A program made the translations under genes and the position numbers. The notes beneath the pieces were generated by a model. It had not been told where the DNA came from. It ran no database searches and saw only the letters and a list, made by a program, of their open reading frames with translations. Shown one piece after another: positions 53,591 through 56,732 of a stretch of DNA of 64,000 nucleotides. Position 1 is the stretch's first letter, and each line of letters begins with the position of its first letter. This DNA is from an uncultured Spartobacteria bacterium (GTDB lineage: Bacteria; Verrucomicrobiota; Verrucomicrobiia; Chthoniobacterales; Chthoniobacteraceae), in contig CAIRYQ010000089.1 of NCBI GenBank assembly GCA_903882875.1, positions 1 through 64,000 on the forward strand. The letters run 5' to 3'.

Positions 53591-53744
53591 TTGCGCGCAA
53601 ATGTATCCCATGCGGGGGAAAATGTGGCGCGGGAATTTCGCCGGATCGGATTGGGCGCAACGGGAGTCAGGGAAACCTTGATGTGAAAAAACGCCGGGGG
53701 GTTCCCGCTTGAGCGTGATGGCGTCCCGTGGCAGCGTGCGTGTC

Positions 53745-53957
53745 ATGAACGCTCAGGAAGTGCTCGCCACCGTCGCCGCCATGCCCAGCGAGGAATGGAT
53801 GAAGATCCAGACGGGCATTGCTGAAATGCTCGCGGCACGGTTTTCCAGCGAAGAGACCTCGGTGATTCGCGAGGCGCTTTCCGAAGCCGAGGCGGAGTTC
53901 GTGCGCGGGGAGGTCCTGCGGGAAGATGATGTGCGGCGGCATTTCGGCCTGCCGTGA
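53745..53957 (+). CDS. RelB-type addiction module antitoxin
   Basis: A 70-residue protein with the addiction-module antitoxin pattern: VLATVAAMPSEEWMKIQTGI at the start, IREALSEAEAEF in the middle and EDDVRRHFGLP at the end. It overlaps the following toxin gene by 4 bases (GTGA), the usual coupled order antitoxin then toxin. Because the toxin is broken, this antitoxin is now a relic or acts on a partner elsewhere. The in-frame ATG at 53709 adds 12 residues and is less likely. Confidence 0.87.
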   Translation: MNAQEVLATVAAMPSEEWMKIQTGIAEMLAARFSSEETSVIREALSEAEAEFVRGEVLREDDVRRHFGLP

Positions 53958-54244: not shown

Positions 54245-54321
54245 TTGGTAGTGGGAATTGGGCGGAGCGTCTGCCGCATCGGGTGGAGCGTGTGCGGTAT
54301 CCGATGAATCCCTTTGGCAAT
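54245..54321. other. Spacer between broken toxin and 21-bp repeats
   Basis: No gene. The last 21 bases (54301-54321) are a degenerate first unit of the repeat that follows. Confidence 0.5.
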
Positions 54322-54552
54322 CCGCTGACGGGATTGCCCAAACCGCTGACGGGTTTGCCGAATCCGCTGACAGATTTGCCCAATCCGCTGACGGGTTTGC
54401 CCAATCGGCTGACGGGTTTGCCCAATCGGCTGACGGGTTTGCCCAATCGGCTGACGGGTTTGCCCAATCGGCTGACGGGTTTGCTCAATCGGCTGACGGG
54501 TTTGCTCAATCGGCTGACGGGTTTGCTCAATCGGCTGACGGGTTTGCTCAAT
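54322..54552. repeat. 21-bp tandem repeat, 11 units
   Basis: Eleven exact-length units (231 bases) with core CTGACGGGTTTGCCCAAT. The first four vary, units 5-7 share GCCCAAT endings and the last four share GCTCAAT endings, showing recent expansion from one side. As 21 is a multiple of 3, each frame would give a heptapeptide repeat (for example TGLPNRL in one frame). All six frames stay open through it. No start or domain makes a gene convincing. It lies between a broken toxin and a truncated TIR gene. Confidence 0.95.
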
Positions 54553-54855
54553 CCGAGTAGTCCGCTCCGGGCCATTTTTTGGCTTTTTGTCAAGAAAACT
54601 GGCGTTTTCTGTATTTTCACCCGGCGGATACGGTGCAGAGACGGGCAGCGATTGGATTTCCCGCCGATCCAACGAAACGGACGAAGACGATACGTGATGC
54701 CCGCAGGCTCCTTCTTGGCGCCCTTCGTGTCCTTCGTAGTTCAATCCCAAAACCCCTGCCCACCGAATCCGGGGCTTGCATTCCGCCCGCCCTTCCTGCC
54801 ATACACCCCGCGTCCGCAGGCTGGAATCCGCGATTGAATCCCACTCCTCAGAGCC
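54553..54855. other. Gene-free spacer upstream of the TIR gene
   Basis: About 300 bases without a convincing gene. Near 54589-54610 is a small palindrome (GAAAACTGGCGTTTTC). Near 54708-54742 is a quasi-repeat phrase (CCTTCTTGGCGCCCTTCGTG). The region should contain the promoter of the TIR gene, but none could be chosen. Confidence 0.5.
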
Positions 54856-55125
54856 ATGTCAACCGAACCGCAACGCTTCGACTACGACGTCTTCCTGAGC
54901 CACAGCGCCAGGGACAAGCCGGTCGTGCGCGACGTGGCGGAGCGGCTGAAGGAGGACGGGCTGCGGGTGTGGTTCGATGCATGGGAGATCCGGCCCGGCG
55001 ACAGCATCGAAGAAGCCCAGTCGAAGACTGCGAAGATCGAGGAAGGGCTGAAGCGCTTCCGCGTGATGGTGCTCTGCATGTCGGTGAATGCGTTCGGCTC
55101 GGACTGGGCGCAGTTGGAGACTTGA
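54856..55125 (+). CDS. Truncated TIR-domain protein
   Basis: An 89-residue protein that is a TIR domain from its first strand (YDVFLSHSARDK) through the BB-loop (FDAWEIRPGD) to VMVLCMSVNAFGSDWAQLET, then it stops. TIR domains are usually about 130-150 residues, and relatives in this phylum continue after WAQLE with more of the domain and often repeats. So the C-terminal third is missing. E44 in the WEI motif is a candidate for the NAD-cleaving glutamate. Whether the short form is active is uncertain. The following HNH gene begins 31 bases later. This could be a shortened defence gene or a remnant. Confidence 0.83.
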   Translation: MSTEPQRFDYDVFLSHSARDKPVVRDVAERLKEDGLRVWFDAWEIRPGDSIEEAQSKTAKIEEGLKRFRVMVLCMSVNAFGSDWAQLET

Positions 55126-55156
55126 TGCGCATTTCAAATCGGGTCTACATCACCAG

Positions 55157-56326
55157 ATGAAACCGCCCTCCAAAGACGAGATCGACGTCGGACTGCGAAA
55201 ATCTAAGTTCGCCAGCAAAACGTTGCCCTACCGAAACCGGCCCTTGTTTGAACAAGGCGAGATGGATTACAAGCGCAGGCTGGGTGCAAGGGTTGACCTC
55301 GCCTTACAAGCCTGTGACCGTAACGATAGAAATTGGCCGGACATGCTTAGTGCTGCAATGCGTTCCAAAGACAACAACATTGTGCCTTGGCAGCCTGTCG
55401 ATTCGTTCTGCAAGTGGTTCACAACTAAACCAGTTTCCGCTCGGAGGCTGCTGCGGGCGATGAATGACCAGCGCAAATTGCCTGTTGAACGGATGGCAAT
55501 ATTCTCCGAGGGGCTTTCGGACACAAAACTCCCCCGCATGACTCAACCGGGCGCTCAACTTTCTTTGGGTTCTGTGCTCCTAATGGCTGGCGACCCGGAA
55601 AATTGTCCGCCAACTCGAACTGACGTGGTTAAATTTGTGGTGGAAAAACTCGGTTTGGAATGGGCTGCTGGCAAAGCGTCGGCAGCCGAGCGCTACGATT
55701 GCTTCCTGAGTATTTTGGATCGCTTGATTCAGGAATCTAGGCTTGGACCAATCGTGTTACAAAATCGCTTGGAGGCTCAAGGCATCGTTTGGTGCTGCAA
55801 GAGTCATTGGATGGAGAAAAACTCCAACTCTGAAGACGATGACATTGAGATAGAAACCCCAATCAGCGCAGATGCGGATATTGCGGACGCCGAGAGATCG
55901 CTGCAAGCTCTCACATCAACTGAACGTGAAACTGTAATTGCGGCCAGGCGTGGGCAGGGACGGTTTCGAAGTGCGCTACTCACCCGTTGGCTGCTGGCTT
56001 GTGCCGTGACGAATTGTACATACCACGCTGTCTTACGAGCGTCGCATCTGAAGCCTTGGAGGATTTGCAGCAATGCAGAACGGTTGTCGCCGGACAACGG
56101 GATGCTGCTAACTCCGACCCTCGACACACTTCTTGATCAATACTTGATCTCGTTCGCCCCCAACGGACGCATCCTCGTTTCTAAGTCACTCAAATCCGAC
56201 GATCTAGCGAAATTGGGAGTGACGACAGAGATGCGCTTGAGAAAAGTGATTGTCACTATGGAGCCATTTCTCAACCACCATCGATCTGAGTTCCAGCGTA
56301 TGGAAAAAATGGTGCGGAAGCATTGA
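55157..56326 (+). CDS. HNH nuclease protein with unknown N-terminal domain
   Basis: A 389-residue protein. The C-terminal part is an HNH domain (HNH_2-like): H297 in ASHLKP, N314 in LSPDNGML and D323/D327 in LDTLLDQ, with CAVTNC just before. The N-terminal about 270 residues are unrecognised, mostly helical, and include NNIVPWQPVDSFCKWF and a CCKSH segment. GC is close to 50 %, far lower than the neighbourhood, which suggests transfer. The ATG at 55157 fits a small spacer after the TIR stop; the frame continues upstream over it to 55088 but is less likely. With the truncated TIR gene it could form a sensor-nuclease pair, but that is inference from position. Confidence 0.8.
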   Translation: MKPPSKDEIDVGLRKSKFASKTLPYRNRPLFEQGEMDYKRRLGARVDLALQACDRNDRNWPDMLSAAMRSKDNNIVPWQPVDSFCKWFTTKPVSARRLLRAMNDQRKLPVERMAIFSEGLSDTKLPRMTQPGAQLSLGSVLLMAGDPENCPPTRTDVVKFVVEKLGLEWAAGKASAAERYDCFLSILDRLIQESRLGPIVLQNRLEAQGIVWCCKSHWMEKNSNSEDDDIEIETPISADADIADAERSLQALTSTERETVIAARRGQGRFRSALLTRWLLACAVTNCTYHAVLRASHLKPWRICSNAERLSPDNGMLLTPTLDTLLDQYLISFAPNGRILVSKSLKSDDLAKLGVTTEMRLRKVIVTMEPFLNHHRSEFQRMEKMVRKH

Positions 56327-56732
56327 TTCTCTCCGCTGTCCGATCCCTCAGGCCAAAGGCCTGACGCAAGCCAGCCCAGCGAGGAACGAGCGCCACCCTG
56401 GGGCTGTAAACAAAGAATGACCAATGCCCCAACGGGGCTTTGCAAATAGGGGTTGCTGTGCCCCGTTGGGGCGTGGGGCTGATTTGTCGCACGAGTCCCA
56501 GGGCAAGACCGCGTTATGATTGCATAGCGCGGTCTTGCCCTTGTTGATGGGGCTTTGGCCCGCGGCGGCTAGCGTGGGGGGCGCGGAAATGTAGGCGAGA
56601 TCGTGAGAGCACGGGCGCGCGTTTTCACGGAGGCTGCTGGGATTTTCGGCGGAGGGATCAGCCTCGCGCTTGGCGGACATCGCCCGTCTCCGGTGCCGCC
56701 CGGTGACTCTGGCGGGAGCGGTGGCGGAATGA
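56327..56732. repeat. Intergenic region with long palindromes
   Basis: No gene is present. GCCCCAACGGGG at 56426-56437 and its reverse complement at 56461-56472 form an inverted repeat. A second hairpin has 14-bp perfect arms, AGGGCAAGACCGCG at 56500-56513 and 56528-56541, with a 14-base loop. Neither is followed by a T-run. They look like dispersed palindromic elements more than plain terminators, and sit between the HNH gene and the convergent dnaB stop. Confidence 0.85.

Follow-up and report, generated by a model that had tools for sequence, protein, structure and literature searches.

The remnant of a large TIR-WD40-Ras/Roc-DUF4365 gene precedes a compositionally foreign HNH nuclease gene in a Spartobacteria bacterium

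VcaM4I is an EVE-HNH modification-dependent restriction endonuclease with a modified-base reader at its N-terminus and an HNH domain at its C-terminus; in the latter, H224, D250 and D254 were identified as catalytic by mutation (PMC7897488). Among other described systems, Thoeris needs an intact ThsB TIR protein with an adjacent ThsA, and Type II restriction-modification needs an adjacent DNA methyltransferase. TIR-WD40-Ras/Roc-DUF4365 proteins carry an N-terminal TIR domain and end in DUF4365, which is described in one account as a nuclease domain in short Argonaute systems (PMC10810196). At the level of whole loci, core-gene-flanked hotspots of Pseudomonas (PMC10250203) and the phage and satellite hotspots of P2 and P4 (PMC9122126) hold variable defence genes between conserved flanks.

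The window analysed here is a stretch of 64,000 nucleotides from an uncultured Spartobacteria bacterium (genome G000, contig C89). It contains a short TIR reading frame followed on the same strand by an HNH nuclease gene, with the following features:

54318–54553, forward strand: 21-bp tandem array of 11.2 copies, upstream of the leader
54699–54858, forward strand: leader, with four copies in the genome (C89, which is the window, C120, C108 and C116; 87–94% identity), each ahead of a different gene
54856–55125, forward strand: 5′ remnant of a TIR-WD40-Ras/Roc-DUF4365 gene, 89 codons (profile match, alignments, dN/dS)
55119–55156, forward strand: break point with spacer; resemblance to every other copy ends after GCGCAGTTGGAG, followed by the stop codon and the spacer to the HNH start (alignment)
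55157–56326, forward strand: HNH endonuclease gene, 389 residues, compositionally foreign, with residues 1 to about 235 lacking detectable relatives (ORF, profile, searches)
55856–56212, forward strand: region encoding HNH residues 234–352, homologous to VcaM4I residues 161–279 (sequence match, structure 6yex)
56348–56472, forward strand: REP-like element, which also directly follows the cargo gene in C120, C108 and G008 C38
56540–56568, forward strand: 29-bp match (86% and 85% identity, E = 7e-4 and 0.009) to C44 and C120, where it forms the end of the inverted REP lying immediately before the DUF4365 gene end

The TIR frame belongs to the same subfamily as the N-terminal TIR of the TIR-WD40-Ras/Roc-DUF4365 proteins, but the remaining domains have been lost. 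It matches positions 1–71 of the 122 in the PF13676 profile (E = 1.1e-17) and corresponds to residues 28–103 of the protein on G513 C17, with 67% identity. The truncation is real beyond chance, because the match is strong and intact relatives run across the break, where their DNA continues and that of the window diverges. Of about 1150 residues, the window thus keeps approximately 28–103; the WD40, GTPase and DUF4365 parts are missing, and a permissive tblastn search detected no WD40, Ras/Roc or DUF4365 sequence downstream of the TIR within the window. The third-position GC content of the fragment (GC3 0.87) resembles that of the host gene dnaB (0.85). Its dN/dS is 0.94 in comparison with the G008 copy and exceeds 1 in comparison with two sister copies of the same genome, where changes are few, whereas most other pairs of copies give about 0.2–0.3. 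The fragment therefore evolves like non-coding DNA and purifying selection is gone, although the frame is still open. It is a remnant of its family rather than a working member, and it differs from Thoeris in that its TIR is truncated and has no ThsA neighbour.

Within the bacterial family of the window, the TIR subfamily was found in 6 of 40 genomes, as fragments only and with no intact copy; the exceptions in this search are two divergent TIR genes whose identity is at most about 50%. Outside this family, in others of the order and class, the subfamily forms the N-terminus of open frames of 1163, 1145, 1144, 1267 and 1218 codons. The intact relatives in G513 and G613 (1163, 1145 and about 1140 residues) have an N-terminal TIR; both G513 copies are TIR-WD40-Ras/Roc proteins, the copy on C17 ends in DUF4365, and that on G613 C14 aligns over its full length with the G513 proteins. 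Two frames in G782 are similar in length and were read only across the TIR match. The TIR DNA of G003 C731, G513 C17 and G782 C37, from different families, shows a dS of about 0.2–0.3. Such low values between families point to recent horizontal transfer, and the parent gene would therefore be mobile. Two further observations concern TIR genes of the genus. In two of its genomes, one and the same part of the TIR frame has given way to a shared short insert of repeat origin (PKAEGSR...HPSAFI..HPFP; L071, 11688–11978; L066, 4764–5042), and the genome of the window also carries a full-length divergent TIR gene adjoining a PsyrT-like helicase (L021, 2091–4789; PADLOC, E = 6e-277).

The HNH frame is open from 55088, with its likely start at the ATG at 55157, 31 bases past the TIR stop. 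PF13391 (HNH_2) matches residues 282–333 (E = 3e-10), and the closest protein to this domain is VcaM4I (PDB code 6yex, E = 8e-19). The two proteins are homologous across 119 residues and share the layout of an N-terminal domain followed by HNH; H297, N314, D323 and D327 of the window protein equal H224, N241, D250 and D254 of VcaM4I. They differ in the N-terminal part, which in the window protein is longer (about 235 residues) and resembles neither EVE nor any other domain in sequence. No relatives of this part were found in 387 genomes of the phylum, plasmids, phages, genome contigs or viral contigs, and sequence-level searches gave no match to EVE (PUA-like), another modified-base reader or any other known domain. 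An AlphaFold model of the protein alone had a mean pLDDT of 36, too low for a fold search, and the N-terminus may still resemble a known reader at the level of its fold. Since its HNH domain is closest to that of VcaM4I and keeps all catalytic residues, the protein is likely a sensor-HNH restriction nuclease, and by analogy its N-terminal part may be a reader of DNA or of its modification.

The composition of the HNH gene is foreign, with a GC content of 0.519 compared to 0.62–0.63 around it and a GC3 of 0.56 compared to 0.85 for dnaB. Much of the original prediction is borne out: the 89-codon TIR frame lacks about a third of the domain, and a low-GC HNH gene begins 31 bases beyond its stop. 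The N-terminal part of the nuclease, given there as 270 residues, is indeed unrecognised, but homology to other HNH nucleases starts near residue 205–250 and its length is closer to 235. The genes around seven plasmid-borne HNH relatives vary and include a BREX gene, methyltransferases and toxin-antitoxin genes. The relatives were also considered as a pointer to a conserved partner and were set aside, as only the HNH domain is common to them and their neighbours vary. The locus also differs from Type II restriction-modification, the neighbours in the window being dinB, a broken ParE-like gene and dnaB rather than a DNA methyltransferase. The ParE-like toxin ORF (PF05016, 53954–54139) is cut by an in-frame stop, beyond which ParE-like sequence continues in frame to about 54243, and it is preceded by a small antitoxin-like ORF (53709–53957). 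Past dnaB, gene order at the dinB-dnaB site is not conserved across the genus, the closest genome included. An Rfam search of the region gave a single sub-threshold match, which was discarded as chance.

The same TIR end stands ahead of other genes elsewhere. About 260 bp comprising the leader and the TIR start are 91–94% identical in C120 and C108, and in C116 the leader match stops at the TIR start codon. The leader is followed by the HNH gene in the window, by a gene for a 269-residue protein without a family match in C120, by an opposite-strand ORF in C108 and by a UG19-type reverse transcriptase in C116. The latter (L022, 597–2657; PADLOC DRT, E = 2e-167) lies directly behind the leader without a TIR start. 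The arrays preceding other leader copies (L019, L020 and L022) share the period and part of the core of the window array, and their other bases differ.

At five contiguous loci (G000 C120, G008 C38, G753 C62, G593 C65 and G782 C37), the insert is followed on the same strand by the C-terminal end of the parent gene, so that the gene is hollowed. A sixth case was inferred across a contig break in the genome of the window: C108 finishes with the TIR start, an ORF and a REP, C44 begins with a REP and the DUF4365 end, and the two probably join because their ends overlap by 70 identical bases. Together, these loci come from four families of the class. In G782 C37 the C-terminal end is present from residue 647 on and is partly decayed. 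In G593 and G753 C62 it is an open frame with a dN/dS of about 0.25–0.29 in comparison with G513 C17, and these two parts may therefore be still functional or recent. A possible C-terminal remnant in G753 C188 (23 residues, E = 0.004) was too weak and was left out of the count. Among the inserts are a PDC-M36A-like gene (G008), an nSTAND-type ATPase with a TPR-like protein (G753 C62), and a second TIR protein with a PAS kinase (G593); loci with the TIR end only hold an AccI-like restriction-modification pair (G003 C731) and an AAA_15/OLD-like gene (G782 C128). In nine of the 11 loci the insert is on the TIR strand, and the gap between the TIR end and the insert ranges from an overlap of a few bases up to about 60 bp. 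Repeated hollowing is real as a pattern, and the inserts are unrelated and mostly of defence type. One hollowed locus also contains an IS200-like (Y1) transposase gene of the REP-associated kind between inverted REPs (L019, 6112–6633).

These loci resemble the Pseudomonas core-gene hotspots (PMC10250203) and the P2/P4 hotspots (PMC9122126) in that variable defence genes are enclosed by conserved flanks. In contrast to both, the flanks here are the two ends of one mobile immune gene, and they occur at several chromosomal places. Within the body of literature searched, no description of defence genes nested in a TIR, WD40 or STAND gene was found. The window itself has the left flank only. The order there is TIR end, insert, REP and the 29-bp match to pre-DUF4365 sequence and then no gene end, the permissive tblastn search having detected no C-terminal remnant. 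It is probably a hollowed locus minus its C-terminal end, whose former presence is suggested by the sister loci.

The locus is thus very probably best explained as a large TIR-WD40-Ras/Roc-(COR-like)-DUF4365 immune gene of which a non-functional 5′ end is left, with an unrelated, horizontally acquired and probably active sensor-type restriction nuclease in place of the lost body. The interior of the parent gene would have been replaced when conserved ends or REP elements recombined, and the HNH gene could be transcribed from the old TIR leader. Judging from the domain layout and the kept active-site residues, the N-terminal region of the protein would recognise foreign or modified DNA and the C-terminal HNH domain would cut it, as in VcaM4I. 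One of the original suggestions, that the HNH gene landed on and broke an older TIR gene, is right about the broken TIR; "landed on" is too simple a description, since other loci have this TIR end in front of unrelated genes.

Two causes of the hollowing compete, each compatible with a broken TIR gene, and both were weighed against small samples of draft genomes that hold no allele or empty site for the window locus. Plain decay is reasonably probable: TIR-WD40-Roc genes located in defence islands would frequently be disrupted, and further defence genes would come to lie within or beside the ruins without any special exchange. It accords with the presence of fragments alone in the 40 genomes of the family, with insert-free fragments in G028 C134, G020 C93 and G004 C2, with small repeat elements inserted within TIR frames, and with the neighbouring ParE-like gene being broken too. 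However, decay does not predict that both ends are kept around unrelated ORFs, with a TIR-side spacer of tens of bases, in several families. The competing cause is a defence-gene exchange site, in which the TIR end and the DUF4365 end serve as conserved flanks and recombination swaps unrelated defence genes between them, one such insert being that of the window. The flanking of foreign genes by both ends at the five contiguous loci and the C108–C44 join, the conflict-type genes among the inserts, the restriction-modification pair at the TIR-end-only locus, the shared strand of most inserts and the mobility of the gene suggested by its low between-family dS all speak for an exchange site. Its break points nevertheless vary (about residues 54–178 on the left and 647–1078 on the right), no recombinase or repeat is shared by all cases, and no pair of genomes was found in which a single chromosomal site shares its flanks but differs in its insert; we regard it as possible, and hold it tentatively. 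A cautious reading of the pattern is serial decay in defence islands; exchange between conserved ends is the interesting one.

A two-gene system in which a minimal TIR functions together with HNH, the other original suggestion, is very improbable: the genes are closely spaced on one strand, the TIR frame is open, and translation could be coupled through an 11-codon mini-ORF, which overlaps the TIR stop (TGATG) at one end and the HNH start (ATGA) at the other, but the C-terminal third of the TIR domain is missing, its constraint is relaxed, and no TIR gene, and hence no conserved adjacency, was found near the HNH relatives examined, including the seven on plasmids. With longer or full-length TIR relatives aligning across the break as well, we reject the two-gene reading and accept the disrupted locus with high confidence.

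The tempting but false "minimal TIR" system is thereby eliminated. What goes beyond the original prediction is the repeated hollowing of one gene family, whose ends flank unrelated genes. More speculatively still, and in our view rather doubtful, the TIR 5′ end and the DUF4365 3′ end could form a class-wide exchange unit around a swappable interior, in which recombination, perhaps REP-aided in this genus, replaces the sensor body with unrelated defence genes run from the old TIR leader. Defence genes might turn over by such a route, with one immune gene providing the frame in which others land. Were frames of this kind common, the orphan genes lying between TIR and DUF4365 ends would offer a systematic source of unknown defence genes, and the HNH nuclease with its orphan N-terminus would be one candidate.
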